Origin: Candidatus Tectomicrobia bacterium
GTDB lineage: Bacteria > UBA8248
Assembly (NCBI GenBank): GCA_016192135.1
Contig: JACPUR010000041.1
Coordinates: 248,001 to 312,000 of the forward strand
Reading direction: 5' to 3'
DNA length: 64,000 nt
Shown: positions 180 to 43,211 of the stretch, in pieces
Position numbering within the stretch: the first letter of the stretch is position 1
Layout: each line of letters begins with the position of its first letter
Made by a program: the position numbers and the translations under genes
Notes under the pieces: model-generated
The model's input: only the letters and a program-made list of their open reading frames with translations
The model's database searches: none
What the model was told of the DNA's origin: nothing

Positions 180-509
180 ATGCGATGCACCATCCTGGGA
201 TCACCGATCGATTGCCACTTCGCCTTCAAGTTGGGGAACGGCAAAGCCGGCCAGAACGGCTGCGGCTACAACGACTCGAGTTGCGTCTCCGTGGTGGACG
301 AGTGCCTGAACGGGGACGACGGCAAGGCCTGCACCCATATCATCGAGATGCCGAAGGGCAAGTTCTGCGGCAAGTTCCCCAACCCGGCGAGCCGCTGGGA
401 GCGGGGCCGCTGCCCCCTGGCCACCCACCTGAAGGTGGACTTCGAGGCGCCCCTCGAGAAGAAGCTCAACCCGCTCAAGGCCTCGAAGCGCGCCGCCCGC
501 GGCGGCTGA
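180..509 (+). CDS. PxxKW-family cysteine-rich protein
   Basis: The 109-residue product starts MRCTILGSPIDCHF and is rich in cysteines spaced along its first 75 residues. Near the C-terminus it has FCGKFPNPASRWERGRCP, which matches the Pro-x-x-basic-Trp signature that names the PxxKW family of small, probably metal-binding proteins; here it reads PASRW. The family's function is not established. No signal peptide or membrane segment is visible, so it is probably cytoplasmic. The start is the only ATG before the first family motif and has a weak GAGG upstream. It is a single gene closed by a strong terminator and is convergent with the following minus-strand gene. Family assignment is from memory of the motif. 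Confidence 0.75.
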   Translation: MRCTILGSPIDCHFAFKLGNGKAGQNGCGYNDSSCVSVVDECLNGDDGKACTHIIEMPKGKFCGKFPNPASRWERGRCPLATHLKVDFEAPLEKKLNPLKASKRAARGG

Positions 510-3120: not shown

Positions 3121-4335
3121 CTAGCTTCTCCGGCCCAGGCGGGCCGCCAGGCGCAGGGCCAGGCGGAGCAGGTCCGCCCCGCGGCGCAGGAGGTACCACC
3201 CGCGCAGGGCGGGCCGGTAGCCGGGATAGATCTGGGCCATCACCTCGTGCCGGGGGAAGGCCGCCTCCCTCAGCAGAGCGAGCTTGGCCCCCGCCCCCTG
3301 CCGGCTCGAGAGCCAGAGGAGGTTCCCCACGGGCGGGCGCTCCCACTCCTCCTTCTCCCCGCTCAGCCGCGTGTGCGCGAGAGAGAGAAGCAGGCGCTCC
3401 AGGAAGGAAGGGCGCATCTCCGCCAGCGCGGCCCGGACGCCCGGCGGAAGCGCGAGCGCGGGGGCGCCGAACCTCCCTTCGCCGAGCAGGCCCAGACTCC
3501 GCAGCGCGTACGCCAACGGCCGGGCGAGCCCCCACGCGCGCGCCCGGGAGAGCACCGCCTCCCAGTCCAGGCCCGGCTCCGAGAGGAGCAGCCCCTCGAT
3601 GTCGGTGAACCAGATGCCCGGCTCGAAATTGTGCTTCATCAGGTGGGTGCAGAGGATGATGAGATGGTCCCCGGGCGCGGGAACCCGGAAAGGGGGGCCG
3701 AGCGGCGAGGGATGGGAGCGGGCCCAGACGGCCGCATCGGTTTCCGCCTCGTCCGCCGCCGGGAGGCGGGCCAGGACGCGCTCGTCCCCGAGCACGTTCC
3801 GGTGCAGCTCCACCACGGACTCTCCCCGCTCCCAGGCGGCCCCGCCTTCTCCCTCCGCCCCCTGGTAGCCCTCGCGCGCCAGGACGCGGCAGGCCTCCTC
3901 CCAGTCTCCGGGCGAGTGGACCACCCAGTCCGAGTCATCCGCCGGGCGGAGGCCCGGATTCGGATAGATCAGGCCCTTGAGGGCCGCCCCCTTGATCAGG
4001 AGGACCTCCACCCCGGCCTCGCGGAGCGGCGGGGCCAGGCGCCGCAGCTCGGCCTCGTCCTGGACGGCCCGCATCGCGACGCGGCGGTACTCCTCCTGGA
4101 GCTTGCGGGGAGGCTCCACCCCCGCGCTCCGGAGATGGTGGCAGAGGACTCCTGCCGTCCACCGGAAGAGGGTTTCCCCGGCGACGGCCTCCCATTGGGC
4201 GGGGGAGGCCGCCCGGGCCGCCCAAGCCAGGATGTCCCGCTCCTCCGGGGCGAGCCGGTGGCGGGAGGCCAGCGAAAGGAGGATGGCTACGGGATCGAGC
4301 CCCGCCTCTCGGATTTCCTTGGCTTCTAGCGCCAT
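3121..4335 (-). CDS. Uncharacterised nucleotidyltransferase (PF14907 type)
   Basis: The 404-residue protein contains LLIKGAALKGLIYPNPGLR followed by an acidic ADDSDWVV, the typical core of the PF14907 nucleotidyltransferase family. Members of that family often sit in peptide-maturation loci beside HPr-kinase-like and PqqD-like proteins, as here. A likely role is modification of a peptide or protein in the neighbouring cluster, but this is inference from context. The gene is divergent from the Met-rich Tat peptide gene and shares its 236-base control region. It is followed after one base by the phosphoesterase. Confidence 0.75.
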   Translation of the reverse strand: MALEAKEIREAGLDPVAILLSLASRHRLAPEERDILAWAARAASPAQWEAVAGETLFRWTAGVLCHHLRSAGVEPPRKLQEEYRRVAMRAVQDEAELRRLAPPLREAGVEVLLIKGAALKGLIYPNPGLRPADDSDWVVHSPGDWEEACRVLAREGYQGAEGEGGAAWERGESVVELHRNVLGDERVLARLPAADEAETDAAVWARSHPSPLGPPFRVPAPGDHLIILCTHLMKHNFEPGIWFTDIEGLLLSEPGLDWEAVLSRARAWGLARPLAYALRSLGLLGEGRFGAPALALPPGVRAALAEMRPSFLERLLLSLAHTRLSGEKEEWERPPVGNLLWLSSRQGAGAKLALLREAAFPRHEVMAQIYPGYRPALRGWYLLRRGADLLRLALRLAARLGRRS

Positions 4336-4429
4336 TCTTTCACCCGGCGTGTCCGTTTTGAGCGCACACTGTTGGATTTTTCACCGCCGCACGATGTTCC
4401 GGCCCGTCCAGCCGAAGCTTCTCTCAAAG

Positions 4430-4445
4430 TGTGACCCAGATCATA
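4430..4445. promoter_or_regulatory. CRP/FNR-like palindromic site
   Basis: TGTGA, six spacer bases, then TCATA gives a near-consensus CRP-type dyad (TGTGA-N6-TCACA). It lies in the divergent region between the nucleotidyltransferase and peptide genes. It is a single motif match, so it may be chance. Confidence 0.35.
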
Positions 4446-4494
4446 GATTGCCCCAAAAATCCTCATTTCATACCGGCTTCGGCATTATAGGAAG

Positions 4495-4524
4495 TTGTCA
4501 GGCGGCGTGGGAATGGCGTATCTT
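4495..4524 (+). promoter_or_regulatory. Candidate sigma-70 promoter of the Met-rich peptide gene
   Basis: TTGTCA at 4495-4500 and TATCTT at 4519-4524 are 18 bases apart, 48 bases before the ATG. The surrounding sequence is AT-rich compared with the neighbouring genes. Confidence 0.45.
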
Positions 4525-4571
4525 TAATGCAAGATATTTTAAGCTGCTAAGGGAAAACCTGGAGCGGCGAA

Positions 4572-4874
4572 ATGAGCGAGAAGCCGATGGCACCCGAAGG
4601 CGATGCGGGCCAGCCCGTGCTCCATACGCGCCGCGAGTTCATCCGCCGCGTCCTCCTCACCACGGCCTACGCGGCCCCCGCCATCGTCTCACTTTCGATC
4701 AGCGGCGTCGCCTCCGGCACCCCCGCCGACCCGGGAAGCAGCGGAGGCACTCCTCCCGGCCAGGCGAAAATGACGGGAAGCCCCATGAGCCCGATGAGCC
4801 CCATGCGGATGATGAGCCCGATGGCGATGAATGAAATGATGCGGATGGGCAACTCCGGCAACATGTGGAAGTAG
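4572..4874 (+). CDS. Tat-type peptide with methionine-rich C-terminus
   Basis: This 100-residue product has a twin-arginine motif (T19-R20-R21-E-F-I) followed by a hydrophobic run ending near SISGVASG, so export by the Tat pathway is likely. After a Gly/Pro/Ser linker, the last 35 residues hold 12 methionines, including four Ser-Pro-Met units and MM, MxM and MxxM spacings. Such spacing is seen in copper(I)-binding proteins, but no function is proven. The ATG is preceded by GGAG eight bases upstream. It lies opposite genes for an HprK-like kinase, a PqqD-fused methyltransferase, PqqD and a nucleotidyltransferase, which suggests it is their substrate. A terminator follows at 4910-4936. Confidence 0.75.
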   Translation: MSEKPMAPEGDAGQPVLHTRREFIRRVLLTTAYAAPAIVSLSISGVASGTPADPGSSGGTPPGQAKMTGSPMSPMSPMRMMSPMAMNEMMRMGNSGNMWK

Positions 4875-4909
4875 CCTGGCCGTTTCGGTTTCCTCTCTCC
4901 GCTTCGCCG

Positions 4910-4936
4910 CGCCGCCTCGGGCGGCGTTTTCTTTTC
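4910..4936 (+). terminator. Rho-independent terminator of the peptide gene
   Basis: A seven-base GC stem (CGCCGCC / GGCGGCG, loop TCG) is followed by TTTTCTTTTC. It overlaps the stop codon of the convergent methyltransferase gene by two bases. Confidence 0.75.
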
Positions 4937-6059
4937 AACCCCCAAGGATCCCCGCGACATAGCGCAGCGCCTGCCGCTCGGTCCCGAAGTCCCCGGGGTA
5001 GGCGGCGAGCAGCTTCCGGGCGATCTCGCCCTGCGTCCTCCGCCCGTCCGCGCAGTCCAGCACGAAACGCATGATCTCCTGCCTCCGGCCCGGCCGGGGG
5101 ATTCTCTCGGCCGATCGCTCCGCGAGCGACTCCTGCCTCAGCGGAATGCCCGCGAAGGTGTTGCCCTCGCAGGCCCGGCCGCCCGCCTCCGCCGACCACT
5201 TCCACCACACCTCCCCGCCCCCGCCCTCGGGGATGCACTGGAGCGACCCCCGCACGGCCCCCCCCGCCTCGACCGGCAGGGCCTCCGGCAAGGGGAACAT
5301 CTGCTGCTCGTAGACCGTCTCGTCCGCGCCGGGGCCGTTGTCCAGCCACACGCCCCCGGCCAGCTCCAGCCGGAACCACGCGCACAGGGCGTGGACTTGG
5401 CCCGCGCGCCGGGCCGCGTCCTCCCATTCGCAGCTCAGGTCGTAGGCCTCGGCCGGATCGCCCAGCCGGTAGCGGCGCAAGAGGCGCGGCGCGGTGATGA
5501 GCGACTCGGGCGCGCAGCGCCCCTTGTGGGCGGAGTTAAGGATCCAGCCGGAGAGCGGCCCGTAGTCGAGCCCCTTCAGGTGCTCGGCCTCCCGGCGCCA
5601 GCGGGCGAGGTTCCCCCAGCTCTCGGGGACCTCCAGCAGGGCCGCCCAGACCTCCACGGCGGCGGGTATCCACCCCCCTCCCGGCGCCAGGAGGCGCTCC
5701 CGCGCGTCGCGGAGCACGGGGGCGAGGCCTCCGCCCAGGAAGGCGCTGTTGAAGTCCTCGAAGATGATCCAGTCCGCCCGCTCGGGCAAGACGGCGCCGA
5801 GAGAGTTCCCCCGGATGACCCGGAGGCGGTCCCCGAACCCCTGGCGGCGGGCGAGCTCCTCCAGGGCGCCGGCCGCCGAGTCCTCGATGGCGTAGACGCG
5901 GGCGGCGCCGGCCTGGCAGGCGAAGAAGCTGTAGGTGCCGAGCCCCGCCCCCACCTCGGCGGCCACCTGCCCCGGCTTCACGCATTGGAGGATCGCGCGC
6001 CGGAAGGCGCGGATGCGGTCCGCGTCCTCGAGCATCCAGGCATACTCGGTCAGCTTCAC
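4935..6059 (-). CDS. PRMT-like SAM methyltransferase with C-terminal PqqD-like domain
   Basis: The 374-residue protein has a class I SAM-binding motif EVGAGLG at residues 35-41, an acidic AIED at 57-60, ADWIIFED at 95-102 and LLAPGGGWIP, all as in protein arginine methyltransferases. The last 70 residues (IMRFVLDCADGRRTQGEIAR) resemble PqqD/winged-helix domains that bind leader peptides. The GTG start overlaps the HprK-like gene's stop as GTGA and has GGAGG seven bases upstream, so a longer ATG-started frame is rejected. It probably methylates a peptide recognised by the PqqD-like part. The target is unknown, with the Met-rich Tat peptide as the nearest candidate. Confidence 0.7.
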   Translation of the reverse strand: MKLTEYAWMLEDADRIRAFRRAILQCVKPGQVAAEVGAGLGTYSFFACQAGAARVYAIEDSAAGALEELARRQGFGDRLRVIRGNSLGAVLPERADWIIFEDFNSAFLGGGLAPVLRDARERLLAPGGGWIPAAVEVWAALLEVPESWGNLARWRREAEHLKGLDYGPLSGWILNSAHKGRCAPESLITAPRLLRRYRLGDPAEAYDLSCEWEDAARRAGQVHALCAWFRLELAGGVWLDNGPGADETVYEQQMFPLPEALPVEAGGAVRGSLQCIPEGGGGEVWWKWSAEAGGRACEGNTFAGIPLRQESLAERSAERIPRPGRRQEIMRFVLDCADGRRTQGEIARKLLAAYPGDFGTERQALRYVAGILGG

Positions 6060-6964
6060 CGGGCGGCCTCCACGCCCGCCGCCCGGGCCAAGCCGAGCTC
6101 GCCGCGCAGCGCCTCCCACGCCTCGCCCGGATGGAGGGCGCTCAGGCGCAAGTTCCGCCCCAGCCCCGCCAGGCGGATCATCGTGTCCACCCCGGCGGCC
6201 GCGCCGTACCACCGGAGGTTGCTCTGCTGCCGCACCATGTCCTCCACCGCCGCCCGGGCCCCCACCTCCTCGATGACGGCCGGGCCGCTCTCTTTCCTCC
6301 GGAGGCAGACGATCCGCTCGACCTCGGCCGTCTCCGGGATGTCGGGAGAGCCGAGGAGGGCGGGGTCCACGAACCACCGGGGGGCGTAGCCGCTGCCCTC
6401 GAGGCGGCACGCATCCCAGCCCCGGCGGAGGCGGGCGGCGGAGGGATCTTCCGTCACCGTGTCCTCCCGCACCACGAGGTTGCGCGGGAAGGGCCGGAGC
6501 GAGAGGCTCGCCGGGTCCACCAGCACCGTCTCGTCCGTCAGGAACCGCCAGCCCCGGAGCAGGAGGTGCAGCGCGAGGGTGGACTTGCCGGCGTGGGAGT
6601 CCCCGATGAGGAGGATGGCCCTGCCCTCCCGCGCGACGGCCGCGGCGTGGATGTGGAGGCAGGCGTCAGCGCGCGCCAGCGCCTTCTCGAAGAACCACTC
6701 GTCCAGCCACCAGAACACATCGCTCCACTCCTCCCCCTCGAAGGCCTTGCCCTCCCCCTCGCGGTGCACCTCGTAGGCGGAATCGGCGCGGCGGATCTCC
6801 ATGAGGTCGTCGGGAGGGGCGGCGGGGGGCTCCTGGCACCGGGAGAAGAAAAGGGGGCGCAGGGGATCGACATCCGGGGCGGCGCCGGCGACGCGGAGGC
6901 GGTATCCGTAGAGCCGGACCTGGAGGGCCGCGAGGGGTGAAGTCTGAACAGGTTGTTCGCCCAT
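6056..6964 (-). CDS. HprK-like serine kinase / ATP-binding protein
   Basis: The 302-residue protein has HIHAAAVA followed by a P-loop GDSHAGKS at residues 121-128 and then LTDETVLVDP. This is the arrangement of HPr kinase/phosphorylase-like proteins. Proteins of this subgroup recur in lasso-peptide and other peptide-maturation loci, and are usually not the sugar-uptake HprK. The start is ATG with GAGG nine bases upstream; the longer frame covers palindromic intergenic DNA and is not used. It overlaps the downstream methyltransferase by four bases, so they are translationally coupled. Its substrate is unknown. Confidence 0.75.
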   Translation of the reverse strand: MGEQPVQTSPLAALQVRLYGYRLRVAGAAPDVDPLRPLFFSRCQEPPAAPPDDLMEIRRADSAYEVHREGEGKAFEGEEWSDVFWWLDEWFFEKALARADACLHIHAAAVAREGRAILLIGDSHAGKSTLALHLLLRGWRFLTDETVLVDPASLSLRPFPRNLVVREDTVTEDPSAARLRRGWDACRLEGSGYAPRWFVDPALLGSPDIPETAEVERIVCLRRKESGPAVIEEVGARAAVEDMVRQQSNLRWYGAAAGVDTMIRLAGLGRNLRLSALHPGEAWEALRGELGLARAAGVEAAR

Positions 6965-7026
6965 GTGCCTGTTCCTCAGCGTGCTCTCGGCAGGTTCTGC
7001 TCCCCTCTCCCTGTCTTTTTGGGTCC

Positions 7027-7159
7027 CCGAACCGGCCCGCCGGTTCGGGAGGGGGGTGAGGGGAGGGGGTGAGGGGGGCGAAGGCGCAAAGGCCTCCCTC
7101 ACCCGGAGCATTCAGGCGGCAAGCCGCCTGGATGCTCCGCCCTCTCCCGAGGGGAGAGG
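7027..7159. repeat. Three palindromes in the intergenic region
   Basis: Stem-loops lie at 7027-7048 (nine-base perfect stem, loop CCCG), 7105-7138 (16 paired bases with one mismatch, loop AA) and 7141-7159 (eight-base stem). They separate the PqqD gene from the HprK-like gene. They are probably REP-like intergenic repeats and none has the T-tract of a terminator. Confidence 0.6.
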
Positions 7160-7218
7160 GAAAGATCGCTCCAAAGAGTGAACAACGTGTGTGGATTCCA
7201 CAACAAGGGGCTCGGGAG

Positions 7219-7512
7219 TCATCCGCCGCCTTCCCCCTCCGGGAGAAGAAGGCCCTCCCGGCGGAAGCCCTCCACCGCGTCCAGGACGTCCCTCAGCAGG
7301 TCCCGGCCCCCGGCGCCCGGGAATTCCCTCAGGCCCTCGGCGATATCGGCGAGGGCCTGCCTTCCGTCCAGGCAGTCCCAGACGTAGGCCGCGGAGGCGT
7401 TCAGCGAGTGGACCTTGTGCGTCCGGGGATCGTAGAGGATGAAGCCGTCGTCCACCTCGCGGCAGAGCACCTCGCCCCGGGTGCGCGGCTTGCTCAAGGC
7501 CGGATCGCTCAT
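7219..7512 (-). CDS. PqqD-family peptide-binding protein
   Basis: The 97-residue protein contains DGFILYDPRTHKVHSLNASA and VWDCLDGRQ, the core of PqqD-type proteins, which bind leader peptides and present them to modifying enzymes. The ATG is preceded by a GAGAGG tract. It lies upstream of the HprK-like and methyltransferase genes on the same strand, separated by 254 bases of palindromic DNA. No pqqA, pqqC or pqqE is nearby, so a role in PQQ synthesis is unlikely. It more probably serves the Tat-peptide locus. Confidence 0.8.
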   Translation of the reverse strand: MSDPALSKPRTRGEVLCREVDDGFILYDPRTHKVHSLNASAAYVWDCLDGRQALADIAEGLREFPGAGGRDLLRDVLDAVEGFRREGLLLPEGEGGG

Positions 7513-7691: not shown

Positions 7692-8477
7692 TCAGCGGTC
7701 CTTGCCTCCGCCGAGGACGGCGGCGGCGCGCGGGAAGAGCCCCAGCGGCAGGAACTCCAGGCTGGCGACGAAGGCGTCGAAGTAGGGCAGCCCGGCCTCG
7801 AAGGCCAGGGCGTGATCGACGTAGTAGAACTCGTAGAGCTTCCCGCCCCGGAGGAAGACGACGACCTTCCCGCGGTAGTTGCCCGTAAAGGCGGGGGTGA
7901 GGCGCTCGGCGCGGTACTGCCTCTCATCGCGCACCTCCTCCCGCGTCCTCGGGCCCGCGAAGGGCTGCCGCTCATCGAGGAGATCGCGCTCGATCTCGCG
8001 CGCCCGGGCCGAGGGCCGCCGCCCCATGCTGCCGCTCAGGTGAAACTCCGCCCGCTCGGCGTCCTTCTCCCGCCCGAGGCGGACCGCCCGATCCAGGGGG
8101 ATGAAGCTCCCCCCGGAGACGACCCGGATGTCGGTGTGGGGCGTCGCCAGCATGCGGCGGTAGATGTAGCGGACCTCGTCGAGGAAGGTGGCCTCCTCGC
8201 CGTAGTGGCGCGGGACGACCTGGAGCGAGATGACGCCGCCGGTATAGGGATTGTCGTAGTAGAGGACCGAGGTGGAGGGGTCGTTCAGGGCCAGGATGTT
8301 CGCCACGTCGGGCGTCCGGCGCCACGGATCGTCCGGGACGGGCGTCACCTGGAAGGCGTGGCGGAAGGAGACGAACTTCGCCTCTCCCCCCCGGGCCGCG
8401 CACCCGGCGGCCGAGAGCGCGGCCCACAGCGCCAGGGCGGCCGGGAGCCAGGCGCCCAACCCCCCGGCGGTCTTCAC
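7692..8477 (-). CDS. Predicted lipoprotein of unknown function
   Basis: From the GTG start the product is 261 residues. A hydrophobic signal of about 20 residues ends in the lipobox LSAAGC, so it is probably lipid-anchored on the periplasmic side of a membrane. The body contains no recognised enzyme motif; it has DNPYTGGVISLQV and a C-terminal beta-rich GNYRGKVVVFLRGGKLYEF that resembles an anchored surface domain. GGAGG precedes the GTG, and an earlier ATG would place charged residues before the signal. It follows the penicillin-binding protein gene after 22 bases, which suggests a cell-envelope role. Confidence 0.6.
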   Translation of the reverse strand: MKTAGGLGAWLPAALALWAALSAAGCAARGGEAKFVSFRHAFQVTPVPDDPWRRTPDVANILALNDPSTSVLYYDNPYTGGVISLQVVPRHYGEEATFLDEVRYIYRRMLATPHTDIRVVSGGSFIPLDRAVRLGREKDAERAEFHLSGSMGRRPSARAREIERDLLDERQPFAGPRTREEVRDERQYRAERLTPAFTGNYRGKVVVFLRGGKLYEFYYVDHALAFEAGLPYFDAFVASLEFLPLGLFPRAAAVLGGGKDR

Positions 8478-8499
8478 CCGGTCCCTTCCCTCCCCCGCC

Positions 8500-10599
8500 T
8501 CAGCGCGCGGAAGCCGGCGCCATGCGCTGAGGCAGGCCTTCCTCCCGGAAAAACGCATCCGTTCCCCTCTGCCCGGCGTCGGCGTACTGGGTGGGGGCCG
8601 TCCCGCGGACGAACACCTCGAAGCCCGTCTTGCGGGTGGCGCGCGTGGCGAGAAGACCCGTTTCCTTGTCCACCCGCACGAATTCTACCCCAGGCGGGGG
8701 GATGAAGTCCCTCATGGGAGCCTCCAGGCCCGACGCCCGGAAGAAATCGACGAAGATCGGAACGGCGTTCCGGCCCCCCGTCTCCCCCGGGCCGAGCGGC
8801 TGGGGCAGGTCGAAGCCCACCCAGACGCCCGCCGCGAGGTCGGGGGTGAAACCGATGAACCAGTTGTCGCGGAACTCGTTGGTGGTGCCCGTCTTGCCGG
8901 CCAGGGGACGTCCCAGCACGGCGGCGCCCCGGGCGGTCCCGGCCTCGACCACCGTCTTGAGCATGTGGGTGAGGACATAGGCCACCTCGGGCCGGATGGC
9001 CGGCTCGGGGCGGTCCTCGTGGCGGTAGATGACGCGCCCCTCCCCGTCCTCGATGCGCTCGATGGCGTAGGGCGTCCGGTGTATCCCGCCGCTGGCGAAC
9101 ACCGAGTAGGCCGAGACCATCTCCTGCAAGGTGACGGCCGAGGCCCCCAGGGCGCTCGAGAGCGTGGGCGAAATCTCGCTCCGGATGCCCAGGCTGCGGG
9201 CGAACCGGATGAGCCGGCCCATGCCCAGCGCCCCCACGAGGCGGATGCTCGCCGTGTTGCGGCTCTCGGCCAGGGCCTCGCGCAGGCTCAGCCGGCCGGA
9301 GAAGTTGCGGCTGTAGTTCTCGGGCTTCCAGAGGCCCCCGCCCCCGCCCTCCATGACGATGGGGGCGTCCAGGACGGAGTCGACGGGGGTGAAGCCCATG
9401 TCCACCGCCGCGGCGTACACGATGGGCTTGAAGGAGCTCCCCGGCTGGCGCAGGGCCTGCACCGTGCGGTTGAACTTGCTCTGGCCGAAGTCCGTCCCGC
9501 CGGCCATGGCGCGGATGGCGCCCGAGCGGACGTCCAGGGCCAGGAGGGCCGCCTCGGGAGAGCGCCACCCGGGCTCCTTCGAGCGCTGGGGCCAGCGCCG
9601 CTCCACCAGCTTGCGGACTCCCTCCCGGACGGCGTTCTCGGCCGCCTCCTGGGCGTCGAGGCGCAGCGTGGTGTGCACGCGCAGGCCGCCGCGGTAGAGG
9701 GTCTCGGAACCGTACATCTCCTCGAGCTGCCGCCGCACGTGCTCGAGGAAGTGCCCGCCCACCCGGATGGGCTCGGGCGCGCGCAGCTCCAGGGGGCTGC
9801 GGGCGAGGCGCCCGCCCTCGCCCGGCTTCAGGTAGCCCGCGACCTCCATGCGCCACAGCACGTGCGCCCGCCGCTCGAGGGCGGGGCCGGGATTGTCGAA
9901 GGGGCGGAAGCGCCCCGGCGCCTGGATGAGCCCGGCCAGGAGCGCCGCCTCGGGGACGGTGAGCTCCGAGGCCTCCTTGTTGAAGTAGGTGCGGGCCGCG
10001 GCCGCCACCCCGTAGGCGCCCTGGCCGAAATACACCTGGTTGAGGTAGCGCTCGAGAATCTGGTCTTTCGTGAGGGACATCTCGAGCCGGACGGCGGCGA
10101 TGGCCTCGACCACCTTGCGCTTCAGGCTCTTCTCGCGCTGGAGGGTGAGCAGGCGCACCAGCTGCTGGGTGATGGTGGAGGCACCCTCGGAGATGCCCCC
10201 CGAGCGCAGATTGTTCACCGCCGCCCGCAGGATGCCCCAGGGGTCGACGCCCCAGTGCCGGTAGAAGCGCTCGTCCTCGACCGAGACGGCGGCGTGCCGC
10301 ATGGCCGGGGATATCTCGGCCAGGGGCAGGAGCTTCCGCTGCTCGGCGGCGAAGCTGCCGACCAGGCGGCCGCCGGCGTCGTGGACGAAGGTGGTCAGGC
10401 TGGGCCGGTGGTCCAGGATGGCGGCCGATCGGGGGATGTCGTCGCTGACCCACACGAGGACGGCGAATGCGCCGATGAGCGGGAGGCCGAAGAGGACGAA
10501 GGCCGTCCAGGCGAGCCGGACGACGCGGGAAACCTTCTTCCGCAGCGTGGAGCCGACGAAGAAGGCGTAGGCGGAGGAAGGGCGGCGCTTCCCCGGCAT
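8500..10599 (-). CDS. Class A penicillin-binding protein (PBP1A type)
   Basis: This bifunctional peptidoglycan synthase has 699 residues. One membrane segment lies near residues 29-52. The glycosyltransferase domain has its catalytic glutamate at E108 (VEDERFYRHWG) and GASTITQQLVR at 139-149. The transpeptidase domain has SSFK at 388-391 (catalytic S388), SRN at 446-448 and KTGT at 569-572, so all catalytic motifs are present. It polymerises and cross-links murein in the periplasm. It is the second gene of a probable set with the upstream coiled-coil protein and the downstream lipoprotein. Confidence 0.93.
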   Translation of the reverse strand: MPGKRRPSSAYAFFVGSTLRKKVSRVVRLAWTAFVLFGLPLIGAFAVLVWVSDDIPRSAAILDHRPSLTTFVHDAGGRLVGSFAAEQRKLLPLAEISPAMRHAAVSVEDERFYRHWGVDPWGILRAAVNNLRSGGISEGASTITQQLVRLLTLQREKSLKRKVVEAIAAVRLEMSLTKDQILERYLNQVYFGQGAYGVAAAARTYFNKEASELTVPEAALLAGLIQAPGRFRPFDNPGPALERRAHVLWRMEVAGYLKPGEGGRLARSPLELRAPEPIRVGGHFLEHVRRQLEEMYGSETLYRGGLRVHTTLRLDAQEAAENAVREGVRKLVERRWPQRSKEPGWRSPEAALLALDVRSGAIRAMAGGTDFGQSKFNRTVQALRQPGSSFKPIVYAAAVDMGFTPVDSVLDAPIVMEGGGGGLWKPENYSRNFSGRLSLREALAESRNTASIRLVGALGMGRLIRFARSLGIRSEISPTLSSALGASAVTLQEMVSAYSVFASGGIHRTPYAIERIEDGEGRVIYRHEDRPEPAIRPEVAYVLTHMLKTVVEAGTARGAAVLGRPLAGKTGTTNEFRDNWFIGFTPDLAAGVWVGFDLPQPLGPGETGGRNAVPIFVDFFRASGLEAPMRDFIPPPGVEFVRVDKETGLLATRATRKTGFEVFVRGTAPTQYADAGQRGTDAFFREEGLPQRMAPASAR

Positions 10600-34715: not shown

Positions 34716-34789
34716 TGGGGGATCGTCTAGCGGCAGGACACATGGCTCTGGACCATGGAACCTAGGTTCGAATCCTAGTCCCCCAGCCA
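34716..34789 (+). tRNA. tRNA-Gln (anticodon CTG)
   Basis: A full cloverleaf is visible. The acceptor stem is TGGGGGA/TCCCCCA, the anticodon stem CATGG/CCATG with loop CTCTGGA, and the T arm CCTAG-GTTCGAAT-CCTAG. The 3' GCCA is encoded. A terminator follows at 34833-34882. The serine recombinase gene begins its coding end 185 bases further on. Confidence 0.95.
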
Positions 34790-34973: not shown

Positions 34974-36539
34974 CTATTGTATGGGCAGAAAGCCCAGTTT
35001 TTGGCGCTGCTCTTTCCAGGAAATCGTCAATTTTGACCGGAGAAGTCGGGCCAGGGTGAGCTCGGCGGGCTGGGTTCCCTGGAGAATCGCTTGGGTGATG
35101 TCCGGAGCCAGGAAGGCGAGAGGCCGGACTTTCCGGAGGTACCGGTCCGTGCAGCCAATCGGCTGGACACCTCCCTTCCCTGATTCGAGGGCCTCCCGCC
35201 ATGCGTGGGCACGGACGACCGCAGTGATGAGCGCCTTGTCTGGACGGGCTCTAGAGGGGGGCGCATCCGGAGGCAGAATCACGCTTTCCCTTCCCCGGCT
35301 CTTCAGTCGGAAAGGGATCCGCAGCGGCGTTTGATCATTCTCACCCTCCGAGACCTTCTTTTTCCAGGTAACCACAACCTCCTGGGTGTGGATTACCACA
35401 CGATGAAGGACGCTACGAATTCTCTCGGCTTCCGCTCCTGGCGATAGCTCACCCCAGGGCTCCTTCTCCATAGAACCTTTCACACGCTCGGCGACAAACC
35501 TCTCAATTGCCTCCGCGGGTACCCGGGAAACTGACCCCACTCCCTCATGCCTTCCCCGGATGAGGGCCTGGCTCACGTAGTAGCGGTAGCGCCTCCCGCT
35601 CGGCTTCTTGGTGTGGGAGGGGGTCATGGGGTTTCCCTGGTCGTCGAAGAGAAGGCCCACGAGGAGGTTCTGGCCGAACTTGGAGGGGGCTTTCCGTTCC
35701 TTGCGGCGGTGGGTGTCGAGGATGGCCTGGACCCGGTCCCAGAGGTCGCTGGGAAGGATGGCCTCGTGCTCCCCTTCGTGGACCGCTCCCTTGTGGGTGA
35801 CCTGGCCTAGGTAGATCCGGTTCTTGAGCAAGGCATAGAGCGCGCCGCGGCCGAAAGGAACGCCACCCCTGGGATTCCCTCGCTGGCTCACCCAGGACTT
35901 GCTCCGGATTCCCCTTTCGCTGAGATCCGGAACGAGCGAGGTCACAGACCCCAGTTCCAGATAGCGCTCGTAGATATGCCGGACCCGTTCGGCCTCCCCG
36001 GGGTTCACATGAAGTTTCCGGTCCCGAATGTCATAGCCCAGGGGCGGGGGACCGCCCATCCACATGCCCTTCTTCTTCGAGGCGGCGAACTTGTCCCGGA
36101 TGCGCTCGCCTGTGACCTCCCGCTCGAACTGGGCGAAGGAGAGCAGGACGTTGAGGGTGAGCCTTCCCATGGAGGTGGTGGTATTGAAAGCCTGGGTGAC
36201 GGAGACGAAGGAGACTCCGTGGGCCTCAAATATCTCCACGATCTTCGAGAAGTCGGTCAGGGATCGGGTCAGGCGATCGACCTTGTAGACCACGACGATG
36301 TCGATGCGTCCTTCGTCGATGTCGGCGAGCAGGGTCTGGAGCCCCGGCCGGTTCATGCTTCCCCCGGAGAAGCCGCCGTCGTCGTAGGCGGTCCGGAGAA
36401 GCTTCCAGCCCTCCCCTGCCTGGCTCCGAATGTAGGCCTCGCAGGCCTCCCTTTGGGCGTGGAGGGAGTTGAACTGCTGCTCCAAGCCTTCCTCGGAGGA
36501 TTTACGGGTGTAGATGGCGCAGCGACGGGGGGGAGTCAT
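34974..36539 (-). CDS. Large serine recombinase
   Basis: The 521-residue protein has the serine-recombinase catalytic domain with YTRKSSEEGLEQQFNSLHAQ (nucleophile S14), IDIVVVYKVDRLTRS and AQFEREVTGERIRDKFAASK. A recombinase domain (PPPLGYDIRDRKL ... NRIYLGQV) and a C-terminal DNA-binding part follow, although no cysteine zinc ribbon is obvious. It would integrate or excise the adjoining island. The ATG overlaps the DUF2924 gene's stop as ATGA. Its position just after tRNA-Gln suggests that the island end lies there, but no att repeat was identified. Confidence 0.9.
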   Translation of the reverse strand: MTPPRRCAIYTRKSSEEGLEQQFNSLHAQREACEAYIRSQAGEGWKLLRTAYDDGGFSGGSMNRPGLQTLLADIDEGRIDIVVVYKVDRLTRSLTDFSKIVEIFEAHGVSFVSVTQAFNTTTSMGRLTLNVLLSFAQFEREVTGERIRDKFAASKKKGMWMGGPPPLGYDIRDRKLHVNPGEAERVRHIYERYLELGSVTSLVPDLSERGIRSKSWVSQRGNPRGGVPFGRGALYALLKNRIYLGQVTHKGAVHEGEHEAILPSDLWDRVQAILDTHRRKERKAPSKFGQNLLVGLLFDDQGNPMTPSHTKKPSGRRYRYYVSQALIRGRHEGVGSVSRVPAEAIERFVAERVKGSMEKEPWGELSPGAEAERIRSVLHRVVIHTQEVVVTWKKKVSEGENDQTPLRIPFRLKSRGRESVILPPDAPPSRARPDKALITAVVRAHAWREALESGKGGVQPIGCTDRYLRKVRPLAFLAPDITQAILQGTQPAELTLARLLRSKLTISWKEQRQKLGFLPIQ

Positions 36540-36964
36540 TTCCGGAGACCGAAGAACAAGGGGCCCGACCAGCGGGTGCCGGTGATCCTGCGGGCCACTT
36601 TGGAGAGGGAGTCGAAGCGCTCCCCCACATACTCGAACCCCGCGTCGAGCACCCGGACGCGGTGGCGGACGCCTTGCCACTCGCGCTCCAGAATCGTCCC
36701 CGGCTTGAGGCCGAGGTTCGGAGTCAGGGAGTGGTCGGGGTTGCGGCCAAGTGAGGTGGTCAGACGCCGAAGTTGGAGCCTGCTCTCGGATGAAAGGCCA
36801 CCAAAAGCATGTTCCTGGATACGCCAGGCAAGGAGTTGTCGGAGAAGGGGTGCGTTCAAGCCGGTGGGGGCGGGGCAGCCAAGTTGACTGTGCCAAGCAT
36901 CGTGCAGTTCGTCGGGGCTGAGTTGTTTGAGTTTTTCGAGATAGACCTCCAGGTTTGCGTCCAT
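36536..36964 (-). CDS. DUF2924 protein, recombinase partner
   Basis: The 142-residue protein matches DUF2924 by LLRQLLAWRIQEHAFGGLS, LKPGTILEREWQGVRHRV and the C-terminal FEYVGERFDSLSKVARRITG. Members of this family are commonly found directly upstream of phage-type serine recombinases and may assist or regulate them. It overlaps the recombinase start by four bases. Confidence 0.85.
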   Translation of the reverse strand: MDANLEVYLEKLKQLSPDELHDAWHSQLGCPAPTGLNAPLLRQLLAWRIQEHAFGGLSSESRLQLRRLTTSLGRNPDHSLTPNLGLKPGTILEREWQGVRHRVRVLDAGFEYVGERFDSLSKVARRITGTRWSGPLFFGLRK

Positions 36965-38627: not shown

Positions 38628-41600
38628 ATGGCGGTAGATAGGGGCGAAATCGAAAGAGCCTTGGACGAACTCTCCTCTTATGAGGAATGGTTCAGATTTC
38701 AGACTCTGGCTGTAATCCTCGCTAAGCAGAAATGGCCAGACCTCATAGCCAATGAACCGCACAAGGATCGCGGACTCGACGCGTATTCTCCACGAATTCT
38801 TGCAACAGATCATGAGGGAAAGGGCCTAGCATGTTCTTTAACTCCAACTTTCGAGAAAATCAAAGGTGATGCAACGACTTTTCACGCCAATTACCCTGAC
38901 ATTAGTAAATATATATTTTACACTCCTCGTAGCATCTCTCAAGAAACAATTCAAAAATGGGCCACAAAGGTAAGACAGGAATTAGGCTATGAATTAATCG
39001 TAGTTTCCCGCGAAGATATAATCACATCCTTGTTGAATCCCTCCAATGTGGGGCTCTGCCGCAGTATCCTGAAGACTCCAGTCTCCTTTGATAGAGCAAC
39101 CGAGGGCATTCTCGACAGAGTGCGTGACGCGACTCGAGATGAGGTTAGAAATTGGTTGTCGCATCCGCGCTTGGTGGGACAGCCCTTGATTTCCCTTAAA
39201 GCAGGCGAGCTCGACGAGGAAGGCAAGGGAACAGAAGAGATCCATGACCTCGCAAGCATTCAGGATTCTCTGTTGAATGGGCGTCGGATAATACTCGAAG
39301 GTCCTGGCGGGGCTGGGAAGACGACAACGCTTATCCAGCTTGCCAATCAACAGATCAAAGAAAGCAGGTTGGGTTTTGTCATTGACTTTCCTGCCTGGAT
39401 TAGGTCGCACCAGGAGATACTTGAATTCATCACCCGCGCGCCGGCATTCCGGTCTCGAAGCATCGGACCCGGAGATCTCGCGGCGCTTTACATGAAAGAC
39501 CACTTTTCATTTCTATTAAATGGGTGGAATGAAATTTCGGAGATTCACTCTGAGGACGCTGTGCGGGCACTGGCAGAATTAGAAAGAACCTTTCCCGCGG
39601 CTGGTATCATCATCGCAACTCGACCACACCACATTAGACCTCCCTTGCCTGGATCGTTTCGCCTCAAATTGCTGCCGCTGAATCAAGCGCAAAGGAAAGA
39701 ATACCTTGAGCAGGCGCTTGCAGATCGGGCGGGGGAATTTATTTCACAAATTGAGAGAGATCGGGCACTCGACGAGTTAACTCGCACGCCTTTGATCCTA
39801 TCCGGAGTAACTAATCTGTTCAATTCAGGCCGATCAATACCTGCGACACAGTTAGGCATACTGAGCGCTGTGATGCAGAAGCTTGAGGATTCTGACGAAC
39901 ACCGCGATCATTTGCAGCGCCCACCTCTGTCGGCTCGGGTGGAGGACTATCTAACCGACCTCGCTCATGAGATGACAGTGCAGGGGCATGTTGATATTCC
40001 CGAGGGGGAAGCCTGTAGAATTGTATCGACAACGAGTCAGGGATTGAGAGACGCTGGCCAAATTGCATTGGTGCCAGAGCCGGCCTCGATTCTTCATGCG
40101 CTATGTGAGCATCATGTTCTGGAACGGTTGGAATACCAATCGGTTGCATTCCGGTTCCAACATCAACGATTTCAGGAGTTCTATTCCTCCTTGCGATTGG
40201 TTTTTATTCTTGGGACCCTTGTCGCGGACGAAAATCCAGACAGAATTCGAGTTTTCCAAGCTGAGTATCTGAACAAGCCGATTTGGGCGGAGCCTCTGTC
40301 CATGATCGCTGAGGGGATAGGAACGGGCGATATTGAATTTGGTGACGCGGTCGAAGCAGTTACAGTTGGGAGATGCCTGGTTATATGGTCGATTCCAGTT
40401 GATCCGATATTTGCCAGTGAACTTTCTCGGCACTGTGGCTCTAAGGTTTGGCGGGAAATTCAAACCCCGCTAGGAGAGCGACTCCGCCGATGGTACGGCG
40501 TTGAGGATGAGCACCACAAGCAATGTGCTTTGGCTGGCATGCTCGCGACAGGCTCTGACGACTTCTGTAACATAATTCTTCCACTTCTAACCGACAACGA
40601 TCAGCAGGTTCGCTTGCGAACCTATCGGGCATTGGGTGAGTTCTATGTGTCGTCACTAGGCGCGGACTGGCGAGGCCTAGTGGCGGGATGGGAGGAAGAA
40701 CGGCGGATCGAGTTTTTGCACGAGATGACTGGAAAGGGAGGAAAGGAGGCTGTGCAAGTGGTGGAAAGCTTCGCAGCAGTCGATCCGAGCCAAAGGGTAA
40801 AGGTGGAGGGCCTTCGCACCCTAAGTTGGCTTGGCGCTGACGAATCTGTTGAACAGATTCTTCGCGATTTTGATGGAGTGGATTTCACGGCGGCCCTGCG
40901 CCACGACCGAATTGTCGAAGAGCTACCCCCCTCTCTGCATTCTAGGGCCATCGGGGCCTACCAGAGCGTTCTAAGCGAGCTTACTGATGTGGGTGAACGT
41001 CTCCGATTTCTAATTAGTATCGCGGTAATGGGGGATCTGGCTGTTGTTGAAGACCTGAAGGAAGAACTGGGGCGGATGCCATCGGATCGAATTAGTGACA
41101 ATCTCGAGCGTTTAGTTAAATCTGCATCGGATTTGGTTCGAGTGACTGAGCCGGAATGGGTCAGCCATTGGGTTGCGGTTCGGATCGCAAATGGCATGCT
41201 TTGGGGCAAGCCTTGGACTGATCTCATCACAAGTGTTCCAAGTGAACTGGCCAGTGCTTTGCTTCAACGGATCAGCGCGGAAGAGCTCCCACATCCGGAT
41301 GCTCAAAGAACCATTTCTGTTTTGGCAGCAATAAATGATCCCTCTTTCGCCGCCCAGGTCTTCTCAAGGCTGTGCGCCCTCAGAGCAAGGATTCTTGAAA
41401 GCACGAGAGAGGACAGCCAGGTGATGTGGAGGATATACAGGCAGTTGAAAGAACTATTCCGAGCGCTTTCCCCAGAGTTGGTCATTTCTGGAATCTCGGA
41501 TTCTTTGTCTGGAGAGATAGTCCTGGTCGAATTTCTCGTTATTTCTGAACGCTTTGGACATATCGCTTTTGAGGAATCCGATATCAGAAGTCGGGTGCCA

Positions 41601-43211
41601 AATGAGTTGCGCCAAGAGTTACGTGCGTATCTCAAGAATTGCGTCTCATTTGTTTCAGGTCAGGATGATTCCAGAGGTCAAATGAAGGCGGACTTGGCCA
41701 TAGTCTTGGGGAGCGCTGGAGATCCTGAGGATATGGTTTATTTGCGCCGACTCATTCGGAGCGACATTGAACGAGTTCGGAGATTCCGAGAGGCTTGGAG
41801 AAGAGGTGACCGTGAGGCTCGGGCTGCTGGCGCTGTGATGGGCCAGAGTGGGTGGCATGTTCGGGCGGTGTCTGAGTTGGCCCCCGAGAGCGCTGATGAG
41901 GTCCTGCTTGAGGTATTCAATGAACCGGAATACGAGATAGATGCTGGCTGGGCCTTGACCCGGTTGGCCCTGAGACAAGGTGCTGAGGAGCGATTTCAGC
42001 ATTGGAAACCCGACTTTAGGGATGTGTGGGAGGCGCGTGAGGGGAACAGGCAAAGTGTCTTCGATGAGGATCGTCGGGTCCGTTACGCCAATAAGATTAG
42101 GACCCAGCTGGATGTGCTCATAAAACAGCGCAGGCACGCGGAGAATCCCGACTCTTTCAATGGACGGCTCAAAGAACTGGTAAAAATGATCGCCTATTTG
42201 GATGGAGGCAATTCGGCTTCACTCGTAATGGAAATTGTGAGCCTCTCCGGTGAGTGGGATGGTTGGACACGGGTTGAAGCCCTCGAATCCCTTCTTCAAA
42301 GTGGTGTCGTATTGTTCACAGATGTGACTTTTGAGGTCCTCAACCCAACGATTGAACACACACTCGCCCAAGGGATTTATAATAATCAAAACAGTTGGCT
42401 TCTCAAACGATGTCTGTGCCTCCTTCCATTCGTTGACGACCCGTCGAGGGGTATCCACCGGATCGGGGAGATACTGTCTCAGGTGAATTTTCCAGTTCAT
42501 GAGTTGCGAGACATAGTGACCGCGCTCGGACAGAGCCGATCTCACGATGCATTAACTCTCCTTCTTGAGTTAGCCGGTGCACCTCAAGGCAGATCGCGAG
42601 TGTTTGCTCAGGAATGGATTGAAGCCATCGCCAATCTCGGTTTCCCCGAGTCAAAAAAAGTTTTGGTGAGTTTCATCGAGCCAACGATGACGGAACCTGG
42701 CATCGACCTATCGAACGAGTATCATATTTACGAACTTTTAGCTTCGCATATAGTTGCCTTAGCGAGGGAGGAGACAGGGGTAAAGGAACGCATTTATCGG
42801 CTGTGCAATACTAACCTACCGCCTGATAAGCGTACCATCATTTCGAATGCCATTGCGAAGTTGGGAACGCCCGAGGCCATTTTGGCGGGTCTGAATCTTA
42901 TTCGAGATGGTGCGAGCCCGCCCGTACCTTTTGATTTAAATCAGGCAATTGAAACCTTCCTCGTCGAACGGAAACCATACGGAGAAGCGGGATACGGGTA
43001 TACACTTGAGCCCCGTAGCTACAACGTAATCCGGGGCCGACTATTTGAGATGGTTTTGAATGACGGGGCACGGAGGAAAACTGCTTTTGCCCTGCTCGGA
43101 GAGATTGAAATCTGGCGACTGCGTTACGGTAAACCGAGCGAAGAGCCACGTCATCCGGGCATTGAAACTGGCAACCCCTGGCCACCTCTTGAGGTGATGG
43201 AGGCGATCTAA
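38628..43211 (+). CDS. NACHT NTPase with N-terminal restriction-like domain and HEAT-like repeats
   Basis: The 1527-residue protein has three parts. Residues 15-140 resemble a restriction-endonuclease fold (KDRGLDAYSP near 46-56, LACSLTPTFEKIK near 67-79), though the usual Q/ExK is not clear. Residues 218-420 are a NACHT-type STAND ATPase with Walker A GPGGAGKT at 245-252, Walker B FLLNGWNE at 295-302 and IIIATRPHH at 327-335. The remaining 1000 residues are helical HEAT-like repeats, the usual sensor part. Known bacterial NACHT/Avs proteins bind phage products and trigger an attached effector. This one probably does the same. GC is low and its size argues for selection, as the frame is intact. 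Confidence 0.8.
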   Translation: MAVDRGEIERALDELSSYEEWFRFQTLAVILAKQKWPDLIANEPHKDRGLDAYSPRILATDHEGKGLACSLTPTFEKIKGDATTFHANYPDISKYIFYTPRSISQETIQKWATKVRQELGYELIVVSREDIITSLLNPSNVGLCRSILKTPVSFDRATEGILDRVRDATRDEVRNWLSHPRLVGQPLISLKAGELDEEGKGTEEIHDLASIQDSLLNGRRIILEGPGGAGKTTTLIQLANQQIKESRLGFVIDFPAWIRSHQEILEFITRAPAFRSRSIGPGDLAALYMKDHFSFLLNGWNEISEIHSEDAVRALAELERTFPAAGIIIATRPHHIRPPLPGSFRLKLLPLNQAQRKEYLEQALADRAGEFISQIERDRALDELTRTPLILSGVTNLFNSGRSIPATQLGILSAVMQKLEDSDEHRDHLQRPPLSARVEDYLTDLAHEMTVQGHVDIPEGEACRIVSTTSQGLRDAGQIALVPEPASILHALCEHHVLERLEYQSVAFRFQHQRFQEFYSSLRLVFILGTLVADENPDRIRVFQAEYLNKPIWAEPLSMIAEGIGTGDIEFGDAVEAVTVGRCLVIWSIPVDPIFASELSRHCGSKVWREIQTPLGERLRRWYGVEDEHHKQCALAGMLATGSDDFCNIILPLLTDNDQQVRLRTYRALGEFYVSSLGADWRGLVAGWEEERRIEFLHEMTGKGGKEAVQVVESFAAVDPSQRVKVEGLRTLSWLGADESVEQILRDFDGVDFTAALRHDRIVEELPPSLHSRAIGAYQSVLSELTDVGERLRFLISIAVMGDLAVVEDLKEELGRMPSDRISDNLERLVKSASDLVRVTEPEWVSHWVAVRIANGMLWGKPWTDLITSVPSELASALLQRISAEELPHPDAQRTISVLAAINDPSFAAQVFSRLCALRARILESTREDSQVMWRIYRQLKELFRALSPELVISGISDSLSGEIVLVEFLVISERFGHIAFEESDIRSRVPNELRQELRAYLKNCVSFVSGQDDSRGQMKADLAIVLGSAGDPEDMVYLRRLIRSDIERVRRFREAWRRGDREARAAGAVMGQSGWHVRAVSELAPESADEVLLEVFNEPEYEIDAGWALTRLALRQGAEERFQHWKPDFRDVWEAREGNRQSVFDEDRRVRYANKIRTQLDVLIKQRRHAENPDSFNGRLKELVKMIAYLDGGNSASLVMEIVSLSGEWDGWTRVEALESLLQSGVVLFTDVTFEVLNPTIEHTLAQGIYNNQNSWLLKRCLCLLPFVDDPSRGIHRIGEILSQVNFPVHELRDIVTALGQSRSHDALTLLLELAGAPQGRSRVFAQEWIEAIANLGFPESKKVLVSFIEPTMTEPGIDLSNEYHIYELLASHIVALAREETGVKERIYRLCNTNLPPDKRTIISNAIAKLGTPEAILAGLNLIRDGASPPVPFDLNQAIETFLVERKPYGEAGYGYTLEPRSYNVIRGRLFEMVLNDGARRKTAFALLGEIEIWRLRYGKPSEEPRHPGIETGNPWPPLEVMEAI

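Follow-up and report, generated by a model that had tools for sequence, protein, structure and literature searches.

A candidate modification cassette for Tat-type peptides in Candidatus Tectomicrobia and its counterparts in other phyla

Described systems and the present cassette

The linear polyphosphorylated peptides (LPPs) of Bacillota are encoded with a RiPP recognition element (RRE; RiPPs being ribosomally synthesised and post-translationally modified peptides), an HprK-like kinase and a nucleoside triphosphate (NTP) transferase, with no cyclase, and their kinase LppK phosphorylates its linear precursor (PMC13381572, Nat Commun 2026). PsmK and PsmN phosphorylate and glycosylate a lasso peptide (PMC9266682), and in lasso and LPP leaders alike the motif YxxPx[LVIFA], also given as [Y/W]xxPx[L/V/I/F/A], is the docking motif for PqqD-family RREs (PMC13381572). 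The present analysis concerns a five-gene cassette in a 64,000-nucleotide stretch of a Candidatus Tectomicrobia genome (GCA_016192135.1, contig JACPUR010000041.1, positions 248,001 to 312,000 of the forward strand; hereafter the window, from whose first letter all coordinates are counted). Here a short precursor with a leader of the twin-arginine translocation (Tat) type is encoded with a stand-alone PqqD-family RRE, an HprK-like kinase, a PF14907 NTP-transferase-like protein and an S-adenosylmethionine (SAM)-dependent methyltransferase of the protein arginine methyltransferase (PRMT) fold. The central result, missed by an earlier note on this DNA, is that, judged from sequence, the RRE docking motif sits inside the putative Tat signal.

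The lpp cluster of Paenibacillus alginolyticus resembles the cassette in its discrete RRE, HprK-like kinase and NTP transferase without a cyclase (PMC13381572), and likewise in a YxxP leader, variable C-termini and conserved equivalents of LppB Asn33 and Asp70. It differs in having an HQxIxFET leader where the leader here is Tat-type, whereas the present cassette has an additional PRMT-fold methyltransferase and a Met-rich core and does not belong to Bacillota. Of the LPP leader consensus YxxPxVLxHQxIxFETxxS, the leader here has YxxPx[IV] and nothing more, and two LPP-defining genes, for an SpI-like peptidase and an MsbA-like transporter, are absent from the three flanking genes scanned with Pfam, genes further out having been judged by reading and no genome-wide search having been made. 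Given that the leader, export route, methyltransferase and taxa all differ, that those two genes are absent from the scanned neighbourhood and that most of the leader consensus is missing, the cassette is a variant of LPP-like logic and is not filed as LPP. The earlier note had called this set of genes unusual; the lack of a cyclase has a precedent in LPP clusters, which share the core of RRE, kinase and NTP transferase (PMC13381572), but the methyltransferase and the Tat-type leader do set the cassette apart.

The paeninodin and pseudomycoidin lasso clusters share with it an HprK-like kinase, a nucleotidyltransferase-like enzyme, a PqqD-family B1 protein and a [Y/W]xxP leader (PMC9266682), but here there is no B2 peptidase and no cyclase at the locus and the peptide is not lasso-like. 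The lasso B2 leader peptidase PF13471 has no match at E 0.01 anywhere in the genome, which is 96.8% complete, and no Asn-synthase-like cyclase was found among the Pfam-scanned neighbours. Lasso clusters of Mesorhizobium and Myxococcota (L043, L044, L046, L040) contain the PRMT-like family with its PqqD-like tail, an HprK-like kinase and PqqD, and have also lost the second glutamate of the PRMT double-E motif; unlike the present locus, L043 has a true lasso precursor (NF033521 above cut-off), a PF13471 peptidase and an Asn-synthase cyclase, and L040 also has the PF13471 peptidase. SynChlorMet-type radical-SAM cassettes (TIGR04248/TIGR04249; L032, L038, L041) combine PqqD, an HprK-like protein, a tailed PRMT-like protein, PF14907 and a short peptide, but have radical-SAM enzymes, intact PRMT catalytic residues and no Tat motif. 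A Tat-type version of the PqqD and HprK system was not found in the open-licence papers searched.

Conservation, leader and core peptides

The cassette is not peculiar to one genome. Within the family of the window's genome, whose closest named relative is RIFCSPLOWO2_12_FULL_69_37, PqqD and strong HprK matches occur in the same 7 of 18 genomes. The leader was found in six of these seven, and the remaining 11 genomes gave no match to it at E 1e-5 (Fisher 0.0004), although the leader profile was built from most of these precursors and its matches are partly so by construction, the informative parts of the search being the absences and the new matches. In the seventh genome, G003, the contig stops inside the methyltransferase gene. 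Two relatives (G002, G012) keep the full order of ispH, yfcE, PF14907, peptide, PRMT, HprK, PqqD, the gene corresponding to that at 7692 and mrcA, and three others (G001, G003, G008) keep the same order up to the ends of their contigs. There is a second HprK copy in G012 and G008, that of G012 with an in-frame stop, and G007 has two cassettes, both without a methyltransferase. The new matches include two unlinked precursors far from any cassette, in G008 (L138, 4816-5049) and G012 (L139, within 4865-5203), both with this leader and with a Met-rich core that ends close to LWT/LWK; this suggests that one maturation set serves several peptides.

Beyond the family, the methyltransferase profile matched 66 loci when run against named genomes. 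Among these, KSB1 (L030), Planctomycetota including Brocadiia (L033, L035, L036, the cassette of L035 being truncated by a contig end) and Poribacteria (L034) have the cassette genes around a short [KR]R-x-F peptide. PqqD was not detected at a further Tectomicrobia locus, L057. Cassette counts outside the family are lower bounds, and the window's phylum and that of G018 contain too few genomes to count more widely. The cassette with variable cores is thus conserved in at least four phyla. The proposal of the earlier note that this is a peptide-maturation locus is borne out, and the check that it named came out in favour: related genomes share the genes, set around Tat-type peptides whose C-termini vary.

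A gap-free alignment of 12 precursors shows the Tat-type consensus [ST][KR]RxF[ILV][KR], with the second arginine, the phenylalanine at position 4 and the proline at position 17 invariant, Ile or Val at position 19, and Tyr at position 14 in all but one precursor, where it is Phe. The resulting YxxPx[IV] (once FxxPxI) is present in 13 of the 13 precursors compared and stands at a fixed distance from the twin-arginine pair in all of them except that of L057, whose leader has the variant RRDLLK and the same YxxPxI after five extra residues. The best 14-residue stretch of the aligned precursors has a hydropathy of 1.1-1.8, an AxA-like site ends most Tectomicrobia leaders, and TatC is encoded in the window's genome (E 7e-67).

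The partner expected for such a motif is also conserved. The PqqD profile matches the structures of TbiB1 (9e-17), TfuB1, LppB and PbaB1, and its Asn38 and Asp75 align with Asn33 and Asp70 of LppB, which hold the proline kink and the tyrosine hydroxyl of the leader, respectively. Among nine aligned RREs of Tat cassettes, Asn38 is kept in all and Asp75 in seven, the others having Glu (KSB1) and His (Poribacteria). The PqqD protein thus appears, from the alignment, to keep the LppB residues that bind the YxxP motif. In Poribacteria (L034) the His replacing the Tyr-binding Asp is paired with the Phe-for-Tyr leader; since a Phe leader offers no hydroxyl, loss of this Asp is the change to be expected.

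The C-terminal halves of the precursors, by contrast with the leaders, are hypervariable among the cassettes of Tectomicrobia, KSB1, Planctomycetota and Poribacteria. A recount upholds the description of the window's precursor as a Met-rich Tat-type peptide with 12 Met in its last 35 residues (P ~2e-15 at the ATG frequency of the neighbours). MSP and [MLI]W[KST] recur in G001, G002, G008, G012 and the two unlinked precursors, and the core of G012 is free of Arg, Lys, His, Asp and Glu. Other cores are quite different: the two of G007 are Met-free, one with 41% Lys/Arg and 21% Ser and the other short, with His and Tyr, that of KSB1 is His/Gly-rich and those of Planctomycetota are Lys/Pro/Thr-rich. 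The precursors belong to no Pfam or NCBIfam family, having only weak, below cut-off matches to Tat models (TIGR02811, TIGR01409). Four other species have a homologue at the syntenic position, its leader and C-terminus conserved, so that the precursor is a real gene, and a chance open reading frame (ORF) is ruled out. None of the five reading frames is disrupted, all are conserved between genera and between phyla, and the genes lie where the earlier note had placed them (Table 1).

Table 1. Genes and sequence elements of the cassette
Feature	Position	Strand	Detail
PF14907 NTP-transferase-like gene	3121..4335	-	Pfam NTP_transf_5 E 1.3e-39, above the Pfam cut-off
Precursor peptide gene	4572..4874	+	100 aa; GGAG 5' of ATG; homologues in 4 species, cassette precursors in other phyla
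Twin-arginine motif TRREFIR, residues 19-25	4626..4646	+	[KR]R[EDQ]F[ILV][RK] in 12/12 aligned precursors
YAAPAI, residues 33-38	4668..4685	+	YxxPx[IV], putative RRE-recognition motif in h-region
Met/Ser-rich core, residues 66-100	4767..4871	+	MSPM repeats, C-terminal MWK
PRMT-fold SAM methyltransferase gene	4935..6059	-	PRMT_C, above the Pfam cut-off
PqqD-like helical tail of methyltransferase, residues ~325-373			hhalign against PqqD, 94% probability
HprK-like kinase gene	6056..6964	-	TIGR04352 (HprK-related kinase A) E 1.9e-18, under the curated cut-off
Stand-alone PqqD-family RRE gene	7219..7512	-	PqqD E 8e-12, above the Pfam cut-off

The partner enzymes

The kinase conserves His106, the P-loop Lys127 and Asp144, the last being Asp in all aligned sequences but one. 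Its predicted model (predicted local distance difference test, pLDDT, 91) gives a Foldseek match to HprK/P and phosphoenolpyruvate (PEP) carboxykinase that is local only, the template modelling (TM) scores against HprK/P being 0.2-0.3. The PF14907 gene is syntenic in G002, G012 and G008 and occurs also in the cassettes of KSB1, Planctomycetota and Poribacteria; by analogy with what is reported for PsmN, its product is predicted to modify the phosphorylated peptide further by adding a sugar or nucleotide.

The methyltransferase matches PRMT6 at 4e-62 by profile, has the SAM-binding motif VGAGLGT and gives a model (pLDDT 88) similar to CARM1 and PRMT6 in Foldseek (E ~1e-27). It shares with these enzymes the fold and the SAM-binding part but lacks the second catalytic Glu and the THW His, and has an added PqqD-like tail. 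The first Glu of the double-E motif is kept (E101), position 110 is Gly and THW is replaced by TVY. Replacement of the second Glu and loss of the THW His are found in 11 of 11 Tat-cassette methyltransferases, whereas 41 of 44 homologues outside Tat and lasso cassettes retain the second Glu, as does the single lasso-type copy with an Arg-containing core (L077). The 11 Tat copies form one clade (support 92/87) and are not independent observations; the loss is consequently one event there and a separate event in the lasso clade. The PRMT-like identity proposed in the earlier note therefore holds for fold and profile, but the enzyme is probably no arginine methyltransferase. Methylation of a non-Arg group, most likely the C-terminal carboxylate or a Ser/Thr oxygen, fits the sequences better. 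C-terminal O-methylation, as performed by StspM in lassomycin-like peptides, is our preferred guess, held with less than even confidence, because only the C-terminal carboxylate is common to all cores, a Ser/Thr hydroxyl being nearly so.

The tail is a related matter. Profile-profile comparison aligns the last 50 residues with the helical half of PqqD, which agrees with the suggestion that the enzyme carries its own leader-binding domain; however, the model contains three helices only, with no sign of the beta part that pairs with leaders, and the Poribacteria homologue has no such tail, so that this suggestion gains only half support.

Two further sets of homologues were observed. An Acidobacteria copy (L037, 121-2511) that has lost the double-E and THW residues falls beside the Tat clade and adjoins a PF14907 gene; a Tat-type precursor is predicted for it, and none was found on its contig. 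In Mesorhizobium, a betaproteobacterium and Myxococcota, lasso-type clusters (L043, L044, L046, L040, L053) combine the PRMT-like enzyme with Arg-free cores, and in these it is possibly a lasso-tailoring methyltransferase with non-Arg chemistry.

Proposed mechanism, alternatives and genomic setting

Gene content, co-occurrence, the docking motif, the conserved RRE and kinase residues and the loss of PRMT residues come from comparison of sequences; we infer every chemical step, the order of the steps, any gating of export and the function that the peptide finally serves. It is moderately probable that the cassette modifies linear peptides destined for export, under the direction of its RRE. PqqD would bind YxxPx[IV] within the Tat-type signal and present the C-terminal core to its partner enzymes: the HprK-like kinase would phosphorylate core Ser/Thr, the PF14907 protein would decorate the phosphate with a sugar or nucleotide, and the PRMT-fold enzyme would methylate a non-Arg group of the peptide. 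By covering the h-region PqqD may block or delay export, and after its release Tat would export the peptide and signal peptidase I would cut off the leader. A more speculative extension, to which we give perhaps a third of our belief, is that PqqD acts as both RRE and Tat proofreading chaperone, such that only finished peptides are exported, and that the PRMT fold was recruited twice, in the Tat clade and in the lasso clade, for non-arginine peptide methylation. Several observations weigh against the proposed system: the Asp-Asp of the lasso-cluster kinases compared is Asp-Glu in the kinase here, the KSB1 core has no Ser and a single Thr, the Planctomycetota leaders have a weak hydrophobic segment and no obvious AxA, so that Tat export may not be universal, the Phe/His pairing in Poribacteria is one example only, and there is the circularity of the leader matches noted above.

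An LPP cluster outside Bacillota would explain part of the same evidence, the twin arginines being no more than a piece of an RRE leader, and the peptide staying in the cytosol until an exporter and an SpI-like peptidase encoded far from the locus act on it. The shared core of RRE, HprK-like kinase and PF14907 protein without a cyclase, the conserved N-terminus with a variable C-terminus and the weak hydrophobicity of some leaders all accord with it. Yet the leaders preserve the Tat consensus, and most of those from Tectomicrobia have an AxA-like site at their end, whereas the xLxHQxIxFETxxS part of an LPP leader and, in the scanned flanking genes, the LPP peptidase and transporter are missing; this explanation is unlikely. 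That the locus is a decaying lasso cluster on its way to disappearance, its protease and cyclase already lost, is very improbable. The same methyltransferase family does occur in the Mesorhizobium and Myxococcota lasso clusters and the B2 family is absent genome-wide, but the five intact frames, the separate methyltransferase clade and leaders without the lasso GxxxxxTxG cleavage region speak otherwise; given the missing B2 family and the separate clade, a lasso remnant was rejected.

Other alternatives concern single components. A true arginine methyltransferase acting on core arginines or on the twin-arginine pair, with methylation controlling export, draws on the strong PRMT profile and fold, the retained first Glu and an Arg pair conserved in nearly all substrates. 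It must contend with the residues lost in every Tat copy and kept in radical-SAM cluster homologues with Arg-containing peptides, with the Arg-free core of G012 and with the Arg-rich cores of G007, where both cassettes lack the methyltransferase; arginine methylation is accordingly improbable. The earlier note had also suggested copper(I) binding, and a Cu(I)- or Ag(I)-binding, Met-rich Tat peptide, its enzymes either tuning it or unrelated to it, would be consistent with the MSPM repeats (MxxM) of several species and the Met-rich cores of the two unlinked paralogues. The sister cores, however, are Met-free and basic, His-rich or Lys/Pro-rich, and housekeeping genes neighbour the locus, with no copper genes among those scanned with Pfam. 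Copper chelation as a general role is thus rejected and copper binding is not a family property; as an account of the whole locus the metal-peptide explanation is improbable to a slightly greater degree, although a metal-binding or cell-surface role is possible for the Met-rich form.

Returning to the cassette's surroundings, the earlier note had reported no radical-SAM enzyme, cyclase or protease, and none was found adjoining the cassette genes. The three flanking genes scanned encode an IspH-UbiA fusion, a YfcE-type phosphoesterase and a protein without a match. The fusion is one 573-aa ORF (572-2293) joining IspH (LytB) to a UbiA-type prenyltransferase and is also kept in G002 and G012; the unmatched protein (7692-8558; 288 aa), beside the cassette and mrcA, has no match in Pfam or NCBIfam and is kept in syntenic relatives. 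Between the HprK-like and PqqD genes lies a 254-bp GC-rich gap (6965-7218) with CCCTC/GAGGG inverted-repeat-like stretches, and there is a similar gap at ~2520. Further along the window, GC content drops from ~0.70 to 0.50-0.63 over 34716-62000, beginning near a tRNA-Gln (34716-34789) and a serine recombinase (34974-36896). This stretch holds a 1527-aa NACHT-type/HEAT protein, a Mutator transposase, an IrrE-type peptidase, an SMC/LmuB-like ATPase, a Fic (SoFic-like) protein and a Type ISP restriction-methylase, and is likely an integrated defence island. The 1527-aa ORF (38628-43211) combines HEAT repeats with NCAB2, a NACHT C-terminal domain; it has no PADLOC match and is possibly an undescribed NACHT-type defence protein.

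If the RRE-directed system is as proposed, the implications reach beyond one genome. Linear phosphorylated RiPPs would be extended from Bacillota to several little-studied phyla, and more substrates could be found using the leader profile. The PRMT-fold enzymes would point to a family with non-arginine chemistry. Finally, the location of an RRE motif within a Tat signal peptide would represent a direct physical link between modification and export.

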